Of a DNA stretch of 64,000 bases, positions 30,825-51,372 are shown piece by piece (the stretch's first letter is position 1; every line of letters begins with the position of its first letter). A model generated the notes under the pieces. It saw only the letters and a list, made by a program, of their open reading frames with translations. It had not been told where the DNA came from and made no database searches. This DNA is from an uncultured Tateyamaria sp. (GTDB taxonomy: Bacteria > Pseudomonadota > Alphaproteobacteria > Rhodobacterales > Rhodobacteraceae), in assembly GCF_947494755.1 (NCBI RefSeq), contig NZ_CANLVZ010000008.1, forward strand, positions 114,739 to 178,738, in the 5' to 3' direction. The position numbers were made by a program, and so were the translations under genes.

Positions 30825-30934
30825 CGGTGTTTTATGTCCTTGGCTTCCTCGTAAGCTAAGTGTCGGAGGCACAAAATCAATTCGGCGATACTTGGCCAGC
30901 GCAGCATCACTTGCGCTTGCATCAGCTTGGATGA

Positions 30935-30949
30935 GAACATAATGTGAAC
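30935..30949 (+). promoter_or_regulatory. LexA (SOS) box, GAAC-N7-GAAC
   Basis: GAAC at 30935-30938, seven bases ATAATGT, GAAC at 30946-30949. This is a perfect match to the alphaproteobacterial LexA direct repeat (GTTC-N7-GTTC read on the other strand). It lies at the start of the radical SAM/UdgX operon, 3 bases before the ATG at 30953, and covers the alternative GTG at 30944. Motif seen; LexA control inferred from established knowledge of alphaproteobacterial SOS boxes. Confidence 0.85.
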
Positions 30950-30952
30950 ATT

Positions 30953-32188
30953 ATGTCCCGACTCTCTCTCGTCTCCAAGCTGGCAATCCTCAGCGACGCA
31001 GCCAAATACGACGCCTCCTGCGCCTCGTCAGGGTCGACTAAACGCGATTCACTCGACGGGAAGGGGTTGGGATCGAACGAGGGATCGGGGATTTGTCACG
31101 CCTATGCCCCAGATGGGCGCTGTATCAGTCTGCTCAAGATATTGATGACAAATTTTTGCATCTATGACTGTAGCTATTGCGTCAATCGGGTGTCGTCGAA
31201 CGTGCCTCGTGCCCGGTTTTCCGTGGACGAGGTCGTGGACCTGACGATCAACTTCTACCGCCGCAACTACATCGAAGGACTGTTTTTATCTTCGGGGATC
31301 ATCCAGTCGCCGGACCGGACGATGTCGGACATGGTGCGCATTGCGCGCAAGCTGCGGCACGAGGAAAACTTTCGCGGCTATATCCACCTCAAGACAATCC
31401 CCGATGCCGCCCCTGAACTGATCGAAGAAGCGGGGCTGCTGGCGGATCGGCTGTCGATCAATGTCGAATTGCCCACGGATGTTTCGGTCAAGAATTTCGC
31501 GCCGGAAAAGAACCCTGCACAGATCCGCAAGGCGATGGCCAACGTCCGGATGCGCAAAGAGGTGGCCAAGGACAAGTCTCACACCGGCAAGCGCCCGCCC
31601 CGGTTTGCCCCCGCAGGGCAATCCACTCAGGTGATTGTGGGGGCGGATGCGTCAAACGATGCGGCGGTGCTGTCGCAATCCACCCGGCTTTATTCCAGTT
31701 ACAAGTTGAAGCGGGTCTATTACTCGGCCTTCTCGCCGATCCCTGACAGTTCCAGCAAGCTGCCGCTGATCCGCCCGCCGTTGCAGAGGGAACATCGGCT
31801 TTATCAGGCGGACTGGCTGTTGCGGTTCTATGGGTTCGACTTGAACGAAATCACGGGCGTGACGCCGGACGGGAACCTCGACCTCGACATTGACCCCAAG
31901 CTGGCCTGGGCCTTGCAGCATCGGGGCCTGTTTCCGCTGGATGTGAACACCGCAAGCAAGGACATGTTGCTGCGGGTCCCCGGCTTTGGCGTCAAATCGG
32001 TGCAGCGTATCCTGAGCACACGGCGACATCGCACGTTGCGATATGAGGATCTGGCCTGCATGGGCGGATCGATGAAAAAGGCGCGCGCGTTCATCACAGC
32101 CCTTGGATGGACCCCGGGCCGGCTGACCGACAGCGCGGATTTGCGCGCCCGGTTCGCGCCCGCACCCCAGCAATTGACGTTGCTGTAA
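30953..32188 (+). CDS. SplB-like radical SAM DNA modification/repair protein (UDG-linked type)
   Basis: A 411-residue radical SAM protein of the group regularly encoded beside a UDG-family gene (TIGR03916-type). The [4Fe-4S] motif is CIYDCSYC (cysteines 69, 73 and 76; C-x3-C-x2-C). A C-terminal helix-hairpin-helix segment (LRVPGFGVKSVQRILSTRR) suggests DNA binding. Spore photoproduct lyase is a distant model, but the real lesion is unknown. The frame also has a GTG at 30944, but that lies inside the LexA box; the ATG at 30953 has no ribosome site upstream, which may indicate a leaderless or short-leader mRNA. The UdgX gene starts on the last base of its stop codon (TAATG). Confidence 0.92.
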   Translation: MSRLSLVSKLAILSDAAKYDASCASSGSTKRDSLDGKGLGSNEGSGICHAYAPDGRCISLLKILMTNFCIYDCSYCVNRVSSNVPRARFSVDEVVDLTINFYRRNYIEGLFLSSGIIQSPDRTMSDMVRIARKLRHEENFRGYIHLKTIPDAAPELIEEAGLLADRLSINVELPTDVSVKNFAPEKNPAQIRKAMANVRMRKEVAKDKSHTGKRPPRFAPAGQSTQVIVGADASNDAAVLSQSTRLYSSYKLKRVYYSAFSPIPDSSSKLPLIRPPLQREHRLYQADWLLRFYGFDLNEITGVTPDGNLDLDIDPKLAWALQHRGLFPLDVNTASKDMLLRVPGFGVKSVQRILSTRRHRTLRYEDLACMGGSMKKARAFITALGWTPGRLTDSADLRARFAPAPQQLTLL

Positions 32189-33654
32189 TGCGGCACATCG
32201 CGTTGCCCAAAATCGGCACGGCGGTGGCGTGGCGCGATGCGGCGCGTGCGTTGTTGGGGGAACGGGTGCCGCCCAGTGACGTCATCTGGGGCGGTGATGA
32301 CACCCCGCCCGAGTTATTTGCGAACGCACCGGCAGCGCCACCAGATCGCAGCGACATAACCGTGCCGCGCAGCTTTGTGGCATTGGCCAACAGCGTGGTC
32401 TGGCATTCCGACCCTCAGCGATTTGCACGGCTCTATGCGTTGCTGTGGCGTGTCCAAAGCGCGCCTTGGCTGATGTCTGATCGGGGGGACGCCGAGGTTG
32501 CAAAGCTGCGCAGCCTGGAAAAAGGCGTACATCGCTGTCAGCACAAGATGAAGGCCTTTGTCCGGTTTCGCGAGATCGGGGACCCCGCAGCGCCACGGCG
32601 ATCCTTTGCCGCCTGGTTTGAGCCGACCCATCACACGGTTGAGCCGACCGCGCAGTTCTTTTGCCGCCGCTTTGGCGATATGGATTGGCGTATCCTGACC
32701 CCTGATGTCAGCGCTCATTTCGAAAAGGGCGTGTTGCGGCTGGAAGACGGGGCTGACGCGCCCGACCTGCCCGATGATGCCCATGAAGAGCTGTGGGTCA
32801 CCTATTTCCGCAACATCTTTAACCCTGCCCGGCTGAAAGTGGCAGCGATGCAGTCGGAAATGCCCAAGAAATACTGGAAGAACATGCCCGAGGCGGTCGC
32901 CATCCCCGAGCTGATCGCAACAGCACCCGCCCGCGCACGCGCCATGGCAGAGGCCGCACCGACCCTGCCGCCCGCGCACGCCGCTAGCGCGCAAGCCATG
33001 CAGATGCGCAATGTCTCTGAATGGACCGGGTCCGCCTGCGCCATGCGCGACGCGCTTGAGGGCTGCACACGCTGCGATCTTCACAAGGGGGCGACCCAAG
33101 CCGTGCCCGGCAGCGGCCCGGTGGATGCGGACCTGATGATTGTCGGGGAACAACCGGGCGATCAGGAGGACCTGGCCGGGCGTCCCTTTGTTGGCCCGGC
33201 CGGGCAGCTTTTCGACCAGGCCGCGGCCCATGCAGGTCTGACGCGCGAGGCGCTTTACCTCACCAATGCAGTCAAGCATTTCAAGTTCACGGCGCGTGGC
33301 AAAAGGCGCATCCATCAACGACCCACACGATCTGAAATCGATCGGTGTGCATGGTGGCTGAACGCGGAGATCAAACAGGTCGCCCCTAAACTGATTGTCG
33401 CAATGGGCGCAACGGCGGCGCTGGCAACAACCGGATCCGGGCAAGCGATCATGAACCGGCGCGGCAAGATCGAGGATGGGCTGCACGGGGGCAAAGTGCT
33501 GATCACACTTCACCCCGCCTATATCCTGCGCGCGCAACCCGCCGAGGTTGCCCAACAGGCGATGCGCGATTTTCAAGCTGACCTTGCGCTGGCACGCCGG
33601 ATCATTTCGGGCGACGCCGTATCCCCTAGTGAAAGTCCCGCGATTTCGGGATGA
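32188..33654 (+). CDS. udgX: UdgX-type uracil-DNA glycosylase fused to an N-terminal UDG/radical SAM-linked domain
   Basis: A 488-residue fusion. The C-terminal 190 residues are a family-4-like uracil-DNA glycosylase with the UdgX hallmarks: GEQPGDQED (residues 320-328) and KRRIH (372-376). In UdgX the histidine of KRRIH forms a covalent bond with the deoxyribose after uracil excision. A cysteine pair (CTRCDLH) and others likely hold the Fe-S cluster. The N-terminal ~270 residues match the uncharacterised TIGR03915-type domain (KGVHRCQHKMKAFVRFRE, DMDWRILTPD). The ATG at 32188 overlaps the radical SAM stop by one base. Its 3' end overlaps the convergent dnaE2 by 29 bp. SOS control comes from the LexA box upstream of the radical SAM gene. 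Confidence 0.92.
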   Translation: MRHIALPKIGTAVAWRDAARALLGERVPPSDVIWGGDDTPPELFANAPAAPPDRSDITVPRSFVALANSVVWHSDPQRFARLYALLWRVQSAPWLMSDRGDAEVAKLRSLEKGVHRCQHKMKAFVRFREIGDPAAPRRSFAAWFEPTHHTVEPTAQFFCRRFGDMDWRILTPDVSAHFEKGVLRLEDGADAPDLPDDAHEELWVTYFRNIFNPARLKVAAMQSEMPKKYWKNMPEAVAIPELIATAPARARAMAEAAPTLPPAHAASAQAMQMRNVSEWTGSACAMRDALEGCTRCDLHKGATQAVPGSGPVDADLMIVGEQPGDQEDLAGRPFVGPAGQLFDQAAAHAGLTREALYLTNAVKHFKFTARGKRRIHQRPTRSEIDRCAWWLNAEIKQVAPKLIVAMGATAALATTGSGQAIMNRRGKIEDGLHGGKVLITLHPAYILRAQPAEVAQQAMRDFQADLALARRIISGDAVSPSESPAISG

Positions 33655-36600
33655 CGCGCACATTGCGCGGATGGCCATGGCTGCCGTGCGGAAGGGCTTT
33701 CCTGACTTCATCAGCACGGGCGAGCGGTGGGGTCATCACATCATTTGCCAACCGGTCAAGCGCATCGCTGCGATCAGACAGGCGATGGGCCACGACATGA
33801 ATGACGTCATCGCTGCGTTGCACCACACCTGTGACATCAATGATACGCGCGCGCATGATGACCTTGCGAAACGCCTCCATCACTTTTGGCCAGACGACCA
33901 GGTTGGCAACGCCGACCTCGTCCTCAAGCGTGATAAAGCAGACCCCCTTGGCGCTGCCGGGACGCTGGCGGATCAATACAATCCCAGCCAGCTTGATGGA
34001 CTGGCCACTGCGCATCGTGTTGAGGACCCCGGTCGAGCGATAGCCCTGCCGTGTCATGCTTGTGCGCAGAAACGACATGGGATGCTCTTTCAAGGACAGC
34101 CGCGTGGTTTGATAATCTGCAACGACATGTTCGCACATGGGCATCTGCGGCAGGGCGAACTGCACTTCGCGCCCCTCGTCCCGGTTTTCCTGGAACAGAG
34201 GCAGGGCTGGCGCATCCCGCAACGCGCGAGCATCCCAAAGCGCCTGCCGCCGATCCAGATCCATGGAGCGTACGGCATCCGCCGCCGCCAGTTTGCGCAA
34301 GGTGCCAACATCAAGGCGGGCGCGTTTTTTCAGGTCTGCCAGATCTGTATAGGGGGTCAGCCGCGCCTCCATGATGCGGTGTGCCATGTCCTGCCGCACG
34401 CCATCAATCTGGCGCAGCCCCAGACGCACCGCAAAGACATCATGTCCAAGAGGTTCCAGCGTGTTGTCCCAATCGCTGTAATTCACATCTGGCGCACGCA
34501 CTGTGACGCCGTGTTCCCTGGCATCGCGCACAATCTGGGCAGGCGCATAGAATCCCATAGGTTGGGAATTCAGCAACGCCGCACAGAACACATCCGGGTA
34601 GTGGCATTTGATCCAACTCGATACGTAGACAAGATGCGCAAAGCTGGCCGCGTGGCTTTCAGGGAAACCATAATCCCCGAACCCTTTGATCTGATGAAAA
34701 CAGCGGTTTGCAAATTCCGGATCATAGCCGCGCCGGATCATGCGCCCGACCATTTTCTCCTCCAATGCGCCAATGGTGCCGCGCGACCGGAATGTCGCCA
34801 TGGCTTTGCGCAGCTGGTTGGCCTCGTCCGGGGAAAACTCGGCGGCAACCATGGCAACTTTCATCGCCTGCTCCTGAAAGATCGGCACGCCCTTGGTCCG
34901 CTTGAGCACGTGCCTCAGCTCATCCGGATCATGCGGGGCGGCGGGTGAGGGGTATTCCTCGGCCTCTTTCCCGCTGCGCCTGCGCAAATAGGGGTGCACC
35001 ATATCGCCCTGAATTGGGCCGGGCCGGACAATGGCGACCTGAATGACCAGATCATAGAATTCGCGCGGCTTGAGCCGGGGCAACATGTTCATCTGCGCGC
35101 GGCTTTCGACCTGAAACACGCCCAGACTGTCGCCTTTGCACAGCATGTCATAAGTCGGCGTGTCGTCCTGTGGAATGCTTGCCAATGTGAATGTCGGTCC
35201 GTGATGGGCTGCAATCATATCGAAGGCCTTGCGGATGCAGGTCAGCATTCCAAGGGCCAGAACATCCACCTTGAGGATACGCAACTCGTCGATATCGTCC
35301 TTGTCCCATTCGATAAAGCTACGCTCAGGCATTGCGCCGTTTCCAATTGGGACAGTTTCGGTCAGCGGCTTTTGGGTCAGGATGAACCCGCCAACATGCT
35401 GCCCGAGGTGGCGCGGCATCCCGATCATCTGATCCGCGATTTTGATGGTGCGGGCCATGAGGGGGTCATTCAGATCGATGCCCGCCTCTGTCGCTTCGCG
35501 CGCGCCGACCTCCCGTCCCCAAGACCCCCAGATGGTCTTGGACAAGGCGGTGGTGATGTCTTCGGACAGCCCCATGACCTTGCCCACTTCGCGCACGGCC
35601 ATACGAGGGCGATAATGGATCACCGTGGCGCACAAAGCCGCCCGGTCGCGCCCGTATTTTTCATAGATATGCTGGATCACCTCTTCGCGCCGCTCATGTT
35701 CGAAATCGACGTCGATGTCGGGGGGCTCTTTGCGTTCTTCACTGATGAAGCGTTCAAACAACAAATCGTTTGTCGCCGGATCAACGGCCGTGATGCCAAG
35801 AACGTAACAGACGGCGGAGTTCGCGGCTGATCCGCGGCCCTGACACAGGATCGGGGGGGTGCAATCGTGCCGGGCGAAATTGACGATGTTCTGGATCGTC
35901 AGGAAATACTGGGCGATTTCAAGCTTGGCAATCAGCGCCAATTCTTTGCGCAAGGTCGCTGTGACGGTATCGGGTATGCCATCCGGATAGCGCCATGCCG
36001 CCCCTTTCCATGTCTGTTCGTCCAAATATTCTTGTGGGGTGCGCCCATCGGGCACGGTTTCCTGCGGGTATTCGTAAGACAGTTCGAGCAGGCTGAACGT
36101 GCAAGCATCCGCAACGACCCGCGTTGCGTGAATGGCATGCGGCCACTCTGAAAACAGCGCCTTCATCTGCGCGGGGGATTTCAAGTGCCGTTCCGCATTG
36201 GCATCCAGCAGAAAGCCTGCCTTCTGGATTGTGGTTTTATGCAGGATACATGTCATCACGTCCTGCAACGGGCGCTGCTCGGGGGCGTGATAGTGAACGT
36301 CATTGGTCGCCAGAATGGACAGCCCGTTGGCGTTTGCAAGCCTGTCCAGCCGATTGATCCGGGCCCGATCATCGCCGCGATAAAGGTAACTTGCCGCGAT
36401 GTGCTTGAGGGTCGGCAGGGCGCGGATCAGACGGCGCAGACCCGCGCTGAAGTGATTGAGGTCCAAACCGGGTATGGCGATCAGTTGCACACCCGCGCTG
36501 TGCTGCGCCAGATCATCCAATGTGATGTCGCAGGCCCCCTTGAGCTGCCATGACCCATCAACCGCCTGCATCTTGGCTTTGGACAGCAAGGTACACAGCC

Positions 36601-36928
36601 GCCCATAGGCCGCCCGGTCACGCGGATAGGCAAGGAACATCTCTCCCGTCACCAGCTCAAGACGGCAGCCAATCACAGGAGTGATCTGGGCTTTGTGAGC
36701 CTCGGCATGCAAGCGGACCACGCCTGCCATTGTGTTCAGATCCGCGCAGCCCAGTTTGTCATATCCCAGCGCATTTGCGGTTGTGGCCAGATCCACGGCA
36801 TCCGAGGCCCCGCGCAAAAAGGAAAAGCATGTGGTGATACCAAGCTCCACGAAAGCGCTGGGCGTGTTGCGGGTGAGCCCATCATCCTCGATTGTGCGCC
36901 TTGGGTGCTGGTTGTCCATGTCAGGCAT
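33626..36928 (-). CDS. dnaE2: Error-prone DNA polymerase DnaE2
   Basis: The catalytic C-family polymerase of the ImuA-ImuB-DnaE2 mutasome, performing translesion synthesis after DNA damage. The 1100-residue length is typical of DnaE2. Features: an N-terminal PHP domain (ITTCFSFLRGASDAVDLA), the palm with PPDIDVDFEHERR (catalytic D404 and D406), a HhH region with SHAASFAHLVYVSSWIKCHY, and a C-terminal OB fold (SIKLAGIVLIRQRPGSAKGV). The ATG at 36928 overlaps the imuB stop by one base. It belongs to the imuA-imuB-dnaE2 operon behind a LexA box. No intein or truncation is evident. Very secure. Confidence 0.96.
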   Translation of the reverse strand: MPDMDNQHPRRTIEDDGLTRNTPSAFVELGITTCFSFLRGASDAVDLATTANALGYDKLGCADLNTMAGVVRLHAEAHKAQITPVIGCRLELVTGEMFLAYPRDRAAYGRLCTLLSKAKMQAVDGSWQLKGACDITLDDLAQHSAGVQLIAIPGLDLNHFSAGLRRLIRALPTLKHIAASYLYRGDDRARINRLDRLANANGLSILATNDVHYHAPEQRPLQDVMTCILHKTTIQKAGFLLDANAERHLKSPAQMKALFSEWPHAIHATRVVADACTFSLLELSYEYPQETVPDGRTPQEYLDEQTWKGAAWRYPDGIPDTVTATLRKELALIAKLEIAQYFLTIQNIVNFARHDCTPPILCQGRGSAANSAVCYVLGITAVDPATNDLLFERFISEERKEPPDIDVDFEHERREEVIQHIYEKYGRDRAALCATVIHYRPRMAVREVGKVMGLSEDITTALSKTIWGSWGREVGAREATEAGIDLNDPLMARTIKIADQMIGMPRHLGQHVGGFILTQKPLTETVPIGNGAMPERSFIEWDKDDIDELRILKVDVLALGMLTCIRKAFDMIAAHHGPTFTLASIPQDDTPTYDMLCKGDSLGVFQVESRAQMNMLPRLKPREFYDLVIQVAIVRPGPIQGDMVHPYLRRRSGKEAEEYPSPAAPHDPDELRHVLKRTKGVPIFQEQAMKVAMVAAEFSPDEANQLRKAMATFRSRGTIGALEEKMVGRMIRRGYDPEFANRCFHQIKGFGDYGFPESHAASFAHLVYVSSWIKCHYPDVFCAALLNSQPMGFYAPAQIVRDAREHGVTVRAPDVNYSDWDNTLEPLGHDVFAVRLGLRQIDGVRQDMAHRIMEARLTPYTDLADLKKRARLDVGTLRKLAAADAVRSMDLDRRQALWDARALRDAPALPLFQENRDEGREVQFALPQMPMCEHVVADYQTTRLSLKEHPMSFLRTSMTRQGYRSTGVLNTMRSGQSIKLAGIVLIRQRPGSAKGVCFITLEDEVGVANLVVWPKVMEAFRKVIMRARIIDVTGVVQRSDDVIHVVAHRLSDRSDALDRLANDVMTPPLARADEVRKALPHGSHGHPRNVRVIPKSRDFH

Positions 36929-38460
36929 CAGGCAAACATCCCGTGCACGAACCAGCGCGGATCCCCGCCGCGCCCATCATCATGCAGACCCTCGCGGTAG
37001 AGCCAGATGCGGCGGCCCGTCTGATCCTCGACCTTGAAATAGTCACGCAGCCGGGTGCCGGGGCGGTCTTTCCACCATTCGGGGGCGATCCGTTCCGGCC
37101 CCGCATACCGGGTGACACGATGGGTTTGCTTGCGCCAGACGAACTGTGCCGGTGGGCCCTCGGGCACCGCATAAAGCACCCGCACTTCTTCGGGGACGTC
37201 CAGCAGACGGATGGGGCGGTTTTGGGACACGGCCTCAACCGGCGGAGGGGGGGTGGACAGGGCGGCGACACGCCCCTCGGCGCGCTCCGGTACGTGGCTG
37301 GCCCGCAAGGTAGGACGCGACACAGCCTGTGTGCCAAACTTTGCCGTCAGCCGATCCACAAGCAAGCTGAGGTCCAAACCATCCTCGACATCGCCATCCA
37401 AACCCTTTTGGACAACGTGCATCGGTTCCACCCCACCCGCGGCCAATGTGATCAGATCAAAGCCGAAACCCGGATTGATACGCTCGACCTTGTCGCGAAA
37501 CAGGCTGTGCAGGTGGATGGGGTCCTGTGAGCTGGCAGACATGGCAACATCGACAAAACTGACATCGCCATCCGTGCGGTACACCGTCAGATGCAGCCTG
37601 CGGCACCCCATGCTTGCGTGCTGCAACGCATCACACAGGTCTTCGCACAATTGGGGCAGATAGGGTGTCGGGTCGAAAATAGGCTCTGCCAAGCGGCTTT
37701 GGACCACAAACCGCGGCTTTGCATCGACGCTAGCAACAGGTTCGGCCAACCGCCCAAACGCCTGATCCAGCCGCATCAGCGGGTTGGAGGCGAGGGCCGC
37801 TTTCACAAAGCGCCGTGTCAGCGAAAGGCGCGGCACATCCATCAATGCCCCGATGGTTTTGAGCCCCAACCTTTGCAACAGCAGCAAAGTCTCGCCGTCC
37901 AGACGCAATCCCGCGACGGGCAAGGGCCCAAGTTTGTGGGGGATTTCATCGGCCATGCAGATTGAGCGCACAGGCCCGAACCTTGCCAGCGCCCAGGCAC
38001 TTCCCCATGTCGGGGCAACGGCCAGTTGTGATGTTAGACCCAGAAGGGACAATTGCGTCTCCATCTCGATCAGCATCGCAGCTTCGCCGCCCAGCAGATG
38101 ATCGGAGCCGCTTGTGTCCAAAATCATCCCGTTGTCGCCATCGCGCACCGTCCACGGACACCAGCGCCGCGCCCACAGCACCAAACGATCCAATGCGGCC
38201 CGGTCACCGGCCTGGTCTGCATATTCCACCTGCAATTCGGGACAAATCGCGCGCATATCCACAACGCGCGATCCCGGCAGAATGCCCATCCCCCGCGCGA
38301 TACGATTGGAGGCGTGGATCACCGGGCCATGATGCCCCTCACTGGCCAGCACCAGCGGAATATCATCCTGTGGCGCGTTGCCCCGTCGTTCCATCGCGCG
38401 CTGCCATCGCTCCATCGCGAAGTGGGGTAATGCGATCGAGACGATCCGCCGTCCGGTCAT
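36928..38460 (-). CDS. imuB: ImuB, catalytically inactive Y-family polymerase homologue
   Basis: The hub protein of the mutasome, which links DnaE2 to ImuA and the beta clamp. The 510-residue protein has a Y-family polymerase fold but starts RIVSIALPHFAMERW, where active Y-family enzymes have the DxDxF(F) metal motif; the missing aspartate pair fits ImuB, an inactive polymerase homologue. A little-finger-like domain and a C-terminal tail follow. It overlaps imuA upstream by 98 bp and dnaE2 downstream by one base. Regulation comes from the SOS box ahead of imuA. The family is secure; the role follows from studied mutasomes. Confidence 0.93.
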   Translation of the reverse strand: MTGRRIVSIALPHFAMERWQRAMERRGNAPQDDIPLVLASEGHHGPVIHASNRIARGMGILPGSRVVDMRAICPELQVEYADQAGDRAALDRLVLWARRWCPWTVRDGDNGMILDTSGSDHLLGGEAAMLIEMETQLSLLGLTSQLAVAPTWGSAWALARFGPVRSICMADEIPHKLGPLPVAGLRLDGETLLLLQRLGLKTIGALMDVPRLSLTRRFVKAALASNPLMRLDQAFGRLAEPVASVDAKPRFVVQSRLAEPIFDPTPYLPQLCEDLCDALQHASMGCRRLHLTVYRTDGDVSFVDVAMSASSQDPIHLHSLFRDKVERINPGFGFDLITLAAGGVEPMHVVQKGLDGDVEDGLDLSLLVDRLTAKFGTQAVSRPTLRASHVPERAEGRVAALSTPPPPVEAVSQNRPIRLLDVPEEVRVLYAVPEGPPAQFVWRKQTHRVTRYAGPERIAPEWWKDRPGTRLRDYFKVEDQTGRRIWLYREGLHDDGRGGDPRWFVHGMFA

Positions 38461-39040
38461 ATGTCACCGTCCACTTGCCCGGCTTGGCTTGACGCGACCG
38501 GAACAGATCGAGCGACCAGCGCGATTCCCCCGGCGCGTGGGCGTCGTGGGCATTGGCGGTAGAGGGGACCGACCCGATCCGCCAGCGGTTGCGGGCCGCA
38601 CTCAGGTTTGGTGTGGCGGCGTGGCGGACCAGCCAGCAAGGCACATCTGCGGCCTCTGCACGAATCGCCAACCGTTTGGTCGCGGTAAAGTCCAACGCGG
38701 CCGGATCGCCCCATATCTCGCCAATCACGGCGACAAGTGTCCGGCAACGCAACCCATCTTCTAATGCCCACAGAACGTCGACCGGACGGGACAAGTTCAC
38801 CGCAATAATGGGGCGCTGGACGCCAAGCCCCGCAAGACAAAGACGCCCCGTTTCGCGACAGGACAGGCGATCCTGCACCCACAACACAGGCGCATTGGTG
38901 CGGGGCAGACGCGCCAATATGTACCCAATTGCGGCTGCATCTGTCACCGTTTCGGGAAAGATCTCCGACAAGGTCCGTTTGATCGGGCTCCGCTGATGCC
39001 GCTGCCCAAGCTTGTATTTTTGAAGAGACAACGACTGCAT
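38363..39040 (-). CDS. imuA: ImuA, RecA/SulA-like mutasome accessory protein
   Basis: A 225-residue RecA-like/SulA-related protein, the first gene of the imuA-imuB-dnaE2 cassette, needed for damage-induced mutagenesis. Segments such as TDAAAIGYILARLPRTNAPVLWVQD and ALEDGLRCRTLVAVIGEIW fit ImuA. The ATG at 39040 and a GTG at 39049 are both possible; neither has a strong ribosome site, and I favour the ATG. Its last 98 bp overlap the beginning of imuB in another frame. The LexA box at 39064-39078 and a promoter overlapping it lie immediately upstream. Confidence 0.88.
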   Translation of the reverse strand: MQSLSLQKYKLGQRHQRSPIKRTLSEIFPETVTDAAAIGYILARLPRTNAPVLWVQDRLSCRETGRLCLAGLGVQRPIIAVNLSRPVDVLWALEDGLRCRTLVAVIGEIWGDPAALDFTATKRLAIRAEAADVPCWLVRHAATPNLSAARNRWRIGSVPSTANAHDAHAPGESRWSLDLFRSRQAKPGKWTVTYDRTADRLDRITPLRDGAMAARDGTTGQRATG

Positions 39041-39063
39041 GCACGTCACACTGATTCCCTAAT

Positions 39064-39078
39064 GTTCCTTCTTTGTTC
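39064..39078 (-). promoter_or_regulatory. LexA (SOS) box of the imuA-imuB-dnaE2 operon
   Basis: Read on the minus strand this is GAAC-AAAGAAG-GAAC, a perfect GAAC-N7-GAAC direct repeat in the same orientation as the box at 30935. It ends 24 bases before the imuA ATG. A sigma70-like promoter overlaps it: -35 TTGACC (39098-39103), a 17-bp spacer and -10 TAGAAC (39075-39080), so LexA would block the -10 element. Sequence seen, binding inferred. Confidence 0.88.
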
Positions 39079-39266: not shown

Positions 39267-39938
39267 TTGGAACACCCAACTCTCACTCTACGAAGCGCCG
39301 CCCACGATATTCGAGGATACCTTGCCAGCGCATCGCTGGCGGCAGAAGGCCTCGGCGCGCATATGGATGAAAAGGTGGCGTTGCGCGCTGAACGCATCGC
39401 CAAGGCCATCGATCAAATCGCCTGTATTTGCGACACGGACCTTGTGGAAGCAGAAAAGCCTGAGACCACAAACTGCCTCAGCCACGACGACATTGAGGAG
39501 ATGCTCAAAGACATCGCGCATCTGATTGGCCCGGTTTACGAAGATCGGATCGGACATCCCAAAATGGACGTGTTTGTATCGCAAGGCACACGGCTTGTGT
39601 GCAGCAAAACCCGGCTGTTTCGGATCATCTATAACCTTACGGTCAATGCTGCGCATGCCATCCGGGCAAGCACTGGCAGCCGGATCACGATCCGGGTGTC
39701 GCAAGGCTGCGGCAAGGTCTGTTTTTCGATATCGGATGATGGCCCCGGCCTGCCCGAACATATCATCGGCCACCTTTATCCCCGGATTGATCGCCCACCG
39801 GCCATGGGCGCACATATCGGCTTTGGCTTGATGACAGCCGTCGGCCTTGCACGCGAGATGGGTGGCAAAATGCGTCTGCTGCGCAGCTCGAAAAACGGCA
39901 CTGAGTTTTGCCTGATGTTACCCGATAGCCCGGTCTGA
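39267..39938 (+). CDS. Orphan sensor-less histidine kinase
   Basis: A 223-residue cytoplasmic kinase-like protein without any sensor or membrane part. It has a dimerisation/phosphoacceptor helix with H13 in AAHDIRGYLA and a HATPase domain with the N box (NLTVNAAHAI), G1 (DDGPGLPEHI) and G2 (GFGLMTAVGLAREMGG). The TTG at 39267 follows GAGGAGG with a 6-base spacer and is the best start; the frame opens at 39252 upstream of that site. No response regulator is adjacent. It is followed by a rho-independent terminator at 40032-40066. A run of nine C residues lies in its upstream region (39172-39180). Confidence 0.85.
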   Translation: MEHPTLTLRSAAHDIRGYLASASLAAEGLGAHMDEKVALRAERIAKAIDQIACICDTDLVEAEKPETTNCLSHDDIEEMLKDIAHLIGPVYEDRIGHPKMDVFVSQGTRLVCSKTRLFRIIYNLTVNAAHAIRASTGSRITIRVSQGCGKVCFSISDDGPGLPEHIIGHLYPRIDRPPAMGAHIGFGLMTAVGLAREMGGKMRLLRSSKNGTEFCLMLPDSPV

Positions 39939-49217: not shown

Positions 49218-50093
49218 TCAGTCGCGCCGAGATGACCCATACTGCTCCGACGTCTGGTAATAGTCCTCGAACCCGATGCGTTGGCGCAGTTCGGTGAAAT
49301 CCATCTGGTTCGGGCGTGCATCATCTCTCATGGCGCGCAGCGTTGTGACCATGGCCTGCATGGCCGATGCCATGAGGGACAGCGGATAGGCCGCAATGGA
49401 ATAGCCGATCTCGTGCAGCGCGGCGTTTGGCAGGTTCGGTGTCGCGCCGCCTTCGACGATATTGGCCATTTTCGCGCCCGGCAGGTTGGCGCAAACCTCG
49501 CGCATCTCGGCTTCGGTTTGTGGGGCTTCGACGAACAGGATGTCGGCCCCAAGTTCGGCAAACTTCGCCGCGCGTTCAATCGCTTCGGACAGCCCATGTT
49601 CATGACGCGCGTCGGTCCGGGAGAGGATCACGATGTCACTGCCCTGCGCGCGCAAGGCCGCACGTTCGTCCACGGCGGCCCGGATGCGGTCAAACGCTTC
49701 GTCTCGCGACACCACGGCCTTGCCCGGAGTGTGACCGCAGCGTTTGGGGGCGACCTGATCTTCGATCATCACGGATGCGCAGCCCGCCCTGGCCATTCCG
49801 GAAACTGTTCGACGCACGTTCATCGCATTTCCGTAACCCGTATCCCCATCAGCAATCAGCGGGATCGTGACCGCATCGGCAATGCTGCGGGCCTGATCCA
49901 CCACTTCGCCGTAGCTCATCAAGCCGAGGTCCGGCGCGCCAATGCGGCTGGCCGACGCGGCAAAGCCCGACATGAAGGTCAGCGCATAGCCCTCTTGCTG
50001 GATCAGCTTGGCGGACAGCGCGTCAAAGCAACAGGGCATGATGTGGCAGGTGTCTTGCGCCAGCAGGTCGCGCAATGTTTCAGCGTGGTTCAT
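49218..50093 (-). CDS. Isocitrate lyase/PEP mutase-superfamily protein
   Basis: A 291-residue TIM-barrel enzyme. Motifs: IADGDTGYGNAMNV (metal-binding aspartates of the family), MIEDQVAPKRCGHTPGKAVV (the catalytic cysteine loop K-R-C-G-H) and a central RTDARHEHGL. Relatives include carboxyphosphonoenolpyruvate mutase, 2,3-dimethylmalate lyase, methylisocitrate lyase and oxaloacetate decarboxylases. A KRCGH loop argues for a C-C lyase. The ATG at 50093 (MNHAETLRDLL) follows the TRAP large permease stop by 4 bp; the frame extends to 50141 without family similarity. It ends the TRAP operon and probably cleaves the imported dicarboxylate-type substrate. Confidence 0.9.
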   Translation of the reverse strand: MNHAETLRDLLAQDTCHIMPCCFDALSAKLIQQEGYALTFMSGFAASASRIGAPDLGLMSYGEVVDQARSIADAVTIPLIADGDTGYGNAMNVRRTVSGMARAGCASVMIEDQVAPKRCGHTPGKAVVSRDEAFDRIRAAVDERAALRAQGSDIVILSRTDARHEHGLSEAIERAAKFAELGADILFVEAPQTEAEMREVCANLPGAKMANIVEGGATPNLPNAALHEIGYSIAAYPLSLMASAMQAMVTTLRAMRDDARPNQMDFTELRQRIGFEDYYQTSEQYGSSRRD

Positions 50094-50097
50094 GCTT

Positions 50098-51372
50098 TCA
50101 CCATTTGAACGGGATATAAAGAGCCAGGTCCGGGAAGGCATAGAGAAGCCCCACCGTCACGATCATGAGCGCAAGGAACGGCCAGACACCACGCGCCACG
50201 TTGGCCAACGACGTGCGCGCAACGGATTGGATCACGTAAAGGTTCAGCCCCACGGGCGGCGTGATCAACGCACATTCCACCATGATCACCATGTAGATGC
50301 CGAACCAGATCGGATCAAACCCAAGGCCAAGTGCGGCGGGCAAGAGGACCGGCGTCATGATCAGAATCATCGACAACGCCTCAAACACCAGCCCCATGAG
50401 CAGAAGGACGACGGAGACCACGATGATGAACATAATCGGCCCATCGATCGTCTGGGCCAAAAAGGCCGAGATGTCCTGCGGGATACGATACAGCGCAATG
50501 GCCTTGCCGAATACCTTGGCCCCGGCCACGATCAACAGGATTGCGGCGGTGGTGATGGCGGATTCACGGATCGCCTCCCAAAATGTGGCCCATGTGAGGG
50601 TACGCAGCCAGAAGGCGACGATGATCAGTGCGGCGGCAGAGCCGATGGCGGCCGCTTCGGTCGGGGTGAAGGCACCCGAGTAAAGGCCGACGATCACAAG
50701 GGCCGCCAGCGCCACCGAGGGAAGCGCGCGCTTTGACGCGGTCATGCGTTCCTGCCACGTGGCCTTGGGCGCGTCTTCGAAGTTGCCAGAGAGTTTGGCG
50801 TGAACCATGGCAAATAGGATGAACAACGTCACCAGCACCAGCCCCGGCCCGATCCCGGCAAGGAACAGCGCGATGACGGACTGTTCGGTGACAAAGCCGT
50901 AGACGATCATCGGGATCGATGGCGGGATCAGGATGCCAAGCGTCCCACCCGCGGCGAGCAGACCGTAGACAAAGCGTTTCTCGTAGCCGCGGTTGATCAT
51001 CTCGGGGATGGCGACGGTGCCGATAGTGGCCGCAGTCGCAACGGACGATCCCGAAATGGCGGCAAACAGGGCACAGCTGATGATCGTCGCCACTGCGAGC
51101 CCACCCGGCCAGTGCCCGACCCAGGCCTGAACGGCCGCAAAAAGATCGCGTCCGACACCACCTTTCAGCAACAGGTTGGACATCAACAAGAACAGCGGCA
51201 CAGCCAGCAGGATAAAACCGTTCAGCGTGGACAAGATCGATTGCGGTGCCATGAGCGGAGAAAACCCGCCCAGCACGAGCATTCCCAGCCCCATGCCGCC
51301 AAGTGCAAAGGCGACCGGAACGCCCAACAGCAGCAGCACAAACAGCGTCACAAGGATCAGGATGATGGTCAT
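50098..51372 (-). CDS. dctM: TRAP transporter large permease, DctM-type
   Basis: The 12-helix ion-coupled permease of a tripartite ATP-independent periplasmic transporter, 424 residues. Family motifs: FVLLLLGVPVAFALG at the start, AISGSSVATAATIGTVAIPEM and GILIPPSIPMIVYG. It overlaps the small permease stop by four bases. Na+-driven uptake of an organic acid is the usual role. The actual substrate depends on the binding protein. Confidence 0.95.
   Translation of the reverse strand: MTIILILVTLFVLLLLGVPVAFALGGMGLGMLVLGGFSPLMAPQSILSTLNGFILLAVPLFLLMSNLLLKGGVGRDLFAAVQAWVGHWPGGLAVATIISCALFAAISGSSVATAATIGTVAIPEMINRGYEKRFVYGLLAAGGTLGILIPPSIPMIVYGFVTEQSVIALFLAGIGPGLVLVTLFILFAMVHAKLSGNFEDAPKATWQERMTASKRALPSVALAALVIVGLYSGAFTPTEAAAIGSAAALIIVAFWLRTLTWATFWEAIRESAITTAAILLIVAGAKVFGKAIALYRIPQDISAFLAQTIDGPIMFIIVVSVVLLLMGLVFEALSMILIMTPVLLPAALGLGFDPIWFGIYMVIMVECALITPPVGLNLYVIQSVARTSLANVARGVWPFLALMIVTVGLLYAFPDLALYIPFKW

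Follow-up and report, generated by a model that had tools for sequence, protein, structure and literature searches.

A predicted SOS-controlled radical SAM-DUF4130-UdgX operon is linked to the imuA-imuB-dnaE2 mutasome cassette in three layouts

We report that an operon encoding a uracil-DNA glycosylase (UDG)-linked radical S-adenosylmethionine (SAM) protein, hereafter rSAM, and a DUF4130-UdgX fusion is physically linked to the mutasome cassette imuA-imuB-dnaE2 in three layouts, in three bacterial families. The work started from a stretch of 64,000 nucleotides of an uncultured Tateyamaria sp. (contig NZ_CANLVZ010000008.1), referred to as the window, in which the two operons lie tail to tail (30953-33654 on the + strand and 39040-33626 on the - strand). 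The host genome, of 4.1 Mb and 99.85% complete, was placed by its named relatives in the Rhodobacteraceae sensu lato (family f1). Both modules are themselves known; what appears to be new is the physical joining of the UDG pair with dnaE2 in several layouts. Judging from the sequences, we lean towards two LexA-repressed operons that would handle damaged template DNA simultaneously, by the mechanism proposed below.

The two other families hold the modules in tighter forms. Six of the 14 genomes with rSAM in family f11 (L164, L165, L166, L188, L192 and L193) have rSAM-udgX immediately ahead of dnaE2 in the same orientation, with udgX and dnaE2 consecutive behind one LexA box; in L165 the likely dnaE2 start follows the udgX stop by 4 nt. 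Five of the six also have imuB on that strand, upstream, and imuA was seen in four, the locus of L166 starting at a contig end 2.1 kb before rSAM and that of L164 ending within imuB. At the extremes, imuB and rSAM are 64 bp apart in L192 and about 2.5 kb apart in L164, and other open reading frames (ORFs) fall within the gap in L164 and L165. Family f147 shows a different arrangement: rSAM-udgX is divergent from imuA-imuB-dnaE2 in eight of the nine genomes with rSAM (L163 and L196-L202, but not L195). A single perfect box lies between the operons there, in the 3 kb that precede rSAM, and the ImuA match is missing in L199. In three genomes of family f26, rSAM and dnaE2 are 41-43 kb apart. That the modules are joined differently in two other families suggests that they work together, and this putative functional bond is better shown by those families, in which rSAM-udgX lies within the cassette or shares its operator region, than by the tail-to-tail layout of the window.

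The sequence-only reading of the window had taken the convergent pair for a single SOS-expressed block and had named the lack of a conserved neighbourhood in related genomes as a refutation; by that test the near relatives do not support it. In a sample of 198 family genomes, one per genus, rSAM scored over its cut-off in 36 and DnaE2 in 167; 33 of the 36 have both, and only in the window genome do the two lie within 5 kb of each other. Elsewhere in the family the two come closest in G088, where about 12 kb separate rSAM from dnaE2; in G427 the distance is about 45 kb. Among 20 genomes of the genus, rSAM was over cut-off in four, DnaE2 of the window type was confined to the window genome and G209, and the convergent layout was seen in two, the window genome and one sister. 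The sister genome, which is that of the uncultured Tateyamaria sp. isolate 4-1 (locus L035) and is taken as the same genome as G209, is the nearest named relative (rSAM 98% identical) and also has the 3' overlap of convergent matches (L035/L133). As a conserved island the block was therefore rejected, being absent from the near relatives; the pairing of mutasome and rSAM-UdgX survives as a linkage that takes other layouts in the two other families.

Several counts weigh against a bond between the modules. Adjacency is missing in 32 of the 33 family genera with both, where the two are on separate contigs or the distance exceeds 5 kb. Of 80 named rSAM loci, with flanks reaching at most 10 kb, 79 lack it, and DnaE2 stands alongside only in L035. 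The linkage is also missing in eight of the 14 f11 genomes with rSAM, and, with DnaE2 counted from 40% identity and 350 bits upwards, none of 35 non-alphaproteobacterial loci, some of them cut by contig ends, has it within about 9.5 kb. Co-occurrence, which had been proposed as a check, gave a divided answer. In a class sample of 387 genomes, with DnaE2 counted over its cut-off, rSAM was found in 29, DnaE2 in 192 and both in 25, so that DnaE2 is present in 25/29 genomes with rSAM and 167/358 without it (Fisher p 2.8e-5, phylogeny not controlled), while within the family the association is not significant (33/36 against 134/162, p 0.21). Caulobacter vibrioides, one of the control species, exceeds the TIGR03916 cut-off. 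Since genomes with rSAM but no DnaE2 over cut-off exist (4/29 in the class and 3/36 in the family), rSAM does not need DnaE2.

Such counts raise the question of whether two mobile SOS modules merely came to stand side by side, sharing the LexA signal only, with neither acting on the product of the other. The rarity of the layout in the genus and the family fits this account, as does the junction, where no terminator-like or promoter-like site was found between 33500 and 33800. Both modules are also carried by plasmids: of 72,556 plasmid records, 158 have a match to rSAM and 780 one to DnaE2. Recurrence of the linkage in two other families, in different and tighter forms, speaks against it, and so does a rough Poisson estimate over 58 genomes, which puts the chance of at least three linked lineages at 4.6e-4 and that of at least two at 0.0096. 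The estimate takes every genome to be 4 Mb long and presupposes independence; two genomes enter it twice, and the window is among the lineages although it was chosen for its adjacency. We regard coincidence as possible but doubtful.

The closest DnaE2 in the plasmid collection, from Roseobacter litoralis pROLI81, is 86.8% identical to that of the window, and its gene is followed closely by an IS91-family transposase and an integrase, with IS3-family elements at a greater distance. To the left of the window block, an ABC1 kinase-like gene and an ABC transporter keep their synteny in all three relatives fetched (G213, G200 and G204); for the histidine-kinase-like ATPase to its right, a close match among the 20 genus members was found only in the sister (87%), the next best being 32%. 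The block thus appears to have been placed beside a native cluster. Horizontal gain of the window mutasome is likely from these comparisons and from the different, split DnaE2 of 18 of the 20 genus members, and we read the tail-to-tail layout as recent and specific to this lineage, two mobile modules having been placed together. In a tree of 27 DnaE2 sequences the polymerases of the window, the sister and pROLI81 are sister to those of f11 (support 1.0), so that the three linkages may not be independent and that DnaE2 clade may share a history with rSAM-udgX. Contrary to a shared history, the window rSAM is closer to those of other Rhodobacterales (up to 86%) than to those of f11 (60-65%). The closest relative of the f11 rSAM in the plasmid records, from Novosphingobium, is 72% identical, with no dnaE2 match within 9 kb.

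Exact GAAC-N7-GAAC boxes stand at the starts of both operons, and the operons do converge with overlapping 3' ends, as had been read from the sequence (Table 1). The probable start of rSAM is the ATG at 30953, 3 nt past its box (the listed GTG at 30944 falls within the box), and that of imuA is the ATG at 39040, 23 nt past its own. The motif by itself is weak evidence, since it is enriched neither in the window (three matches against 1.72 expected; at least three in 25 of 100 shuffles) nor in the genome (109 matches against 142 for a reversed control), and box frequency was dropped as an argument for that reason; the third match in the window, at 49807-49821, falls within an ORF (49218-50141). 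It is position and conservation that decide. In the sister, the half-sites are kept while the spacer differs, both at rSAM (GAACATACCATGAAC) and at imuA (GAACAAAAGAGGAAC); the recA gene of the same genome (TIGR02012, 570 bits), which served as a positive control, has GAACACAATGAGAAC 61 nt before its ATG. With a box near the start, kept in relatives and found also at recA, both operons are predicted members of the LexA regulon; conservation extends broadly for the rSAM box and to the sister for the window imuA box. A perfect 7+2+7 inverted repeat, ATAATGT-GA-ACATTAT (30939-30954), which spans the rSAM box and the start codon, was considered as a second operator and set aside, the sister being without it.

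Beyond the near relatives, the rSAM box is conserved as a predicted operator. Scanning from -120 to +15 of the rSAM start in either orientation, the direct-repeat box was found in 139 of 143 alphaproteobacterial loci, drawn from two sets that may share genomes (78/79 named loci and 61/64 others, with 0.25 and 0.18 expected). The loci without it include L172, L173 and L174, which come from genomes (G598, G381 and G587) with no DnaE2 over cut-off and in which the stretch downstream of rSAM showed no GEQPG. Among 35 non-alphaproteobacterial rSAM loci from the Proteobacteria (L204-L238), many of which come from few genera and hence are not independent, none has the direct repeat and 25 have CTGT-N8-ACAG (0.07 expected), which we take to be the LexA motif of the E. 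coli type; this second motif was absent from the alphaproteobacterial rSAM loci scanned. The operon would therefore have kept a LexA box while the motif itself changed with the bacterial group.

Alignment of 123 boxes also points to the promoter: TTG opens a hexamer that is followed, 17 nt on, by TAtaat within GAAC-N7-GAAC, and the ATG comes a few bases later in most loci. The window is in the same register (TTGCAT-N17-TAATGT), with its -10-like hexamer inside the LexA box, which fits a promoter whose -10 would be covered by LexA and whose transcript would be nearly leaderless. LexA should thus block rSAM transcription directly. A generic promoter scan did not report the TTGCAT/TAATGT pair on the + strand, gave one unrelated pair on the - strand and returned neither operon's promoter as expected, so that the predicted window promoter rests on the register of the relatives.

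The rSAM protein, P0001, combines a TIGR03916 score far above the curated cut-off, CX3CX2C at Cys 69/73/76 and an adjoining DUF4130 partner gene, which bears out its description as a UDG-linked radical SAM protein; PF04055 is over its cut-off, and a C-terminal helix-hairpin-helix (HHH_3) is under it. Three further cysteines outside this motif, Cys 23, 48 and 57, are conserved to at least 97% in 114 sequences, with conservation also checked in 27, and may hold a second iron-sulphur cluster. Its chemistry is a guess, since the predicted model is weak (mean pLDDT, the predicted local distance difference test, of 65.9; residues 18-84, including the cluster, below 50), and this too tells against the mechanism proposed here. 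Outside cellular genomes, a scan of viral contigs returned two rSAM loci only.

One reading of that chemistry is a lyase like SplB, in which rSAM would directly reverse a pyrimidine photoproduct, UdgX would be fused to its partner for a separate lesion and the neighbourhood would serve tolerance of ultraviolet light. It gains something from splB itself having LexA sites in alpha- and betaproteobacteria, as the part of PMC3323433 at hand describes. A Foldseek search with the weak model found generic radical SAM relatives (MiaB, HydE, LIAS, viperin, RlmN and others) and no spore photoproduct lyase among the 50 rows listed, and a sequence search of the PDB gave no relative up to E 1 except HydG (0.045). 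We hold such a lyase to be unlikely.

UdgX is of the covalent type, as far as motif and predicted fold can support such an assignment, and on this point as well the earlier description stands. P0002 scores 192 bits to TIGR03915 (cut-off 112.25) and 310.6 bits to TIGR03914, the UdgX family (cut-off 189.95), and carries GEQPG (320-324), KRRIH (372-376) and HPAYILR (442-448), with His376 invariant in 25 sequences. It matches 6ajo by phmmer at E 4.6e-46; by Foldseek it matches Mycobacterium smegmatis UdgX entries at TMt 0.82-0.92, the best 30 rows all being UdgX entries and nearly all of the matches listed belonging to the UDG family. The M. smegmatis enzyme (6AIL and relatives) shares the GEQPG motif A, the KRRIH R-loop with the crosslinking His, the HP...LR motif B and the fold; unlike it, the window UdgX is fused behind DUF4130 and shares its operon with a radical SAM gene.

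Across the loci tested, DUF4130 is the more constant partner. A DUF4130 match was found within 5.6 kb downstream of rSAM in 174/174 loci and a UDG domain as well in 141, of which 126 match a K/RxRxH-like loop by regular expression and 15 do not. The other 33 have no detectable UDG domain downstream, and 24 of these carry a LexA box of either type, so that UdgX cannot be the whole story; rSAM-DUF4130 looks like the SOS-controlled core, with UdgX as an add-on. Among the non-alphaproteobacterial loci, 20 of 34 tested have no UDG domain downstream of rSAM-DUF4130. The close company of rSAM, DUF4130 and UDG domain in 141 loci would also suit a radical SAM protein that reverses the covalent bond between UdgX and DNA, making the capture temporary; the 24 boxed loci without a UDG domain, in genomes where UDG elsewhere was not looked for, imply that this is not its general task, and we hold it to be very improbable.

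DnaE2 of the window exceeds the cut-off of the mutasome polymerase family NF004225 (1407.3 bits against 939) and contains PF07733, PF17657, PF14579, PF01336 and PF02811. ImuB scores 29.8 bits to PF00817 (cut-off 23.2) and falls just below the cut-off for a C-terminal DUF6504 (23.7 against 24.2 bits); by eye, what we assume to be the usual N-terminal acidic metal-site residues of the Y-family were not seen. ImuA is the weak member, reaching 30.5 bits to NF033429 where the cut-off is 150, less than the RecA of the same genome (41.5 bits), and this counts against our reading. It is accordingly named by position and by tblastn, in which the window imuA matches ORFs at the ImuA position in L165, L188, L192, L193, L163, L196-L198 and L200-L202. 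Of the mutasome claimed from the sequence, DnaE2 is upheld by its score, and ImuA is not upheld by its own.

The mechanism that we propose is as follows. LexA, bound over the -10 of the nearly leaderless rSAM promoter, would block it directly until its RecA-driven self-cleavage, and imuA-imuB-dnaE2, behind a box of its own, would be released by the same signal. From what its family does, UdgX would use His376 to remove uracil from DNA exposed during the SOS response and would stay on the abasic sugar, shielding it from strand breakage. The rSAM-DUF4130 pair would act on a damaged base by a reductive radical step, and ImuA-ImuB-DnaE2 would complete synthesis across the remaining damage. Hand-off of lesions to the mutasome, as the sequence-only reading suggested, is plausible on these grounds. 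In a bolder version, some Alphaproteobacteria would have an extended mutasome with rSAM, DUF4130 and UdgX as its accessory parts. These would convert selected bases in single-stranded gaps, damaged or deaminated, into templates that are abasic and shielded, or processed in another way, for ImuA-ImuB-DnaE2 to copy. This version is tentative and in our judgement rather improbable; if true, it would mean that the cell influences both the sites of SOS mutations and the way in which they come about.

The same co-regulation and class-level co-occurrence would be explained if UdgX and rSAM cleaned up behind the SOS polymerases, correcting wrong nucleotides that these insert themselves. Such a task, with ribonucleotide misincorporation as its form, has been suggested for SOS-controlled UDGs in the portion of PMC8565304 available to us. 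UdgX, though, stays covalently bound after excising uracil and does not turn over, by the accessible text of PMC10359453, a poor property for bulk clean-up, and the rSAM-DUF4130 pair occurs without DnaE2 and, at some loci with a LexA box, with no UDG domain detected; we think this account unlikely. For the proposed shielding, the discoverers of UdgX themselves put forward protection of abasic sites, and its physiological role is described as still largely unknown (PMC10359453, same portion).

The libraries used assign no reaction to the TIGR03916/DUF4130 pair. Its LexA box, kept across the change of motif and with or without a UDG domain, together with its repeated joining to the DnaE2 mutasome, would place it in SOS damage tolerance, which is an assignment open to test: the effect of the pair should be readable as a changed SOS mutation spectrum.

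Among the closest known systems is the SOS-controlled UDG pair COG1573-COG4277. We take COG4277 to be the TIGR03916 family. In the text at our disposal, PMC8565304 describes SOS control of that pair in Bacteroidetes and, by citation, in Verrucomicrobia and Alphaproteobacteria; it is apparently the same pair, a UDG-family protein and a UDG-linked protein under LexA. The present loci differ from that account in the E. coli-type box of the non-alphaproteobacterial loci (25/35), in the forms without a detectable UDG domain, in the -10 hexamer within the alphaproteobacterial type of box and in the physical joining to dnaE2. DUF4130 with an SplB-like radical SAM protein and a UDG has been noted in a study of SOS gene neighbourhoods (PMC3765255, in its available part). 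Literature searches returned no report of rSAM-udgX linked to dnaE2 or imuAB, nor of a LexA box at the rSAM-DUF4130/UDG pair in Proteobacteria other than the Alphaproteobacteria, and the sections obtained of a Dinoroseobacter shibae LexA study (PMC6473078) make no mention of uracil, glycosylase, radical SAM or imuA.

For the cassette, what could be consulted of PMC3323433 states that imuA-imuB-dnaE2 is LexA-regulated wherever present. The ImuA-ImuB-DnaE2A modules of PMC12926913, as given in the text available, have the gene order, the overlapping genes, the upstream LexA box and the DnaE2 domains, including the oligonucleotide/oligosaccharide-binding (OB) domain, of the window. In the window, however, a second SOS operon converges on the cassette, and the f11 and f147 composition, with rSAM-udgX before dnaE2 or sharing the operator region, does not appear in that text. 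Coordinates of the two operons are collected in Table 1. A comparable principle may be seen in SRAP/YedK (HMCES), a protein that can shield abasic sites. The excerpt seen of PMC3765255 has SRAP near mutagenic polymerases under SOS control, as UdgX is here, but the two proteins are unrelated.

Table 1. Features of the two convergent operons in the window
Feature	Positions	Strand	Details
UDG-linked radical SAM protein (P0001)	30953..32188	+	411 aa; TIGR03916 576.5 bits, cut-off 343.5
DUF4130-UdgX fusion (P0002)	32188..33654	+	488 aa; TIGR03915 + TIGR03914, PF13566 + PF03167
dnaE2, error-prone C-family DNA polymerase	33626..36928	-	1100 aa including OB domain; NF004225
imuB, Y-family-like mutasome subunit	36928..38460	-	510 aa; PF00817
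imuA	38363..39040	-	225 aa; by position and tblastn; NF033429 match below cut-off
Predicted LexA (SOS) box of rSAM, GAACATAATGTGAAC	30935..30949	+	exact GAAC-N7-GAAC
Predicted LexA (SOS) box of imuA, GAACAAAGAAGGAAC	39064..39078	-	exact GAAC-N7-GAAC
Inferred rSAM promoter	30917..30945	+	-35-like TTGCAT 30917-30922, 17 nt, -10-like TAATGT 30940-30945
Convergent 3' overlap	33626..33654		29 bp; udgX stop at 33654, dnaE2 end at 33626

The histidine-kinase-like ATPase gene mentioned above adjoins imuA at 39276-39938 (+). The relatives in the genus are of some interest for DnaE2 itself: 18 of the 20 members have a different DnaE2, of about 1000 aa and without the C-terminal OB domain, together with a separate small gene that matches the OB domain at 45-49%. 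In all seven fetched (L119, L122, L124, L126, L128, L130 and L132), the small OB gene (140-150 aa) has an in-frame ATG 2 nt past a perfect direct-repeat LexA-type box, and at the loci of the core DnaE2 genes (L118 and L123) no direct-repeat box and no imuAB match was found. The OB part of this split DnaE2 thus looks SOS-controlled, as judged by the boxes, and a literature search for it returned nothing relevant. ImuB lies elsewhere in the genomes of the same relatives (L145, L146, L147 and L148), 31-32% identical to that of the window, with a direct-repeat box of its own just upstream in 4/4 fetched.

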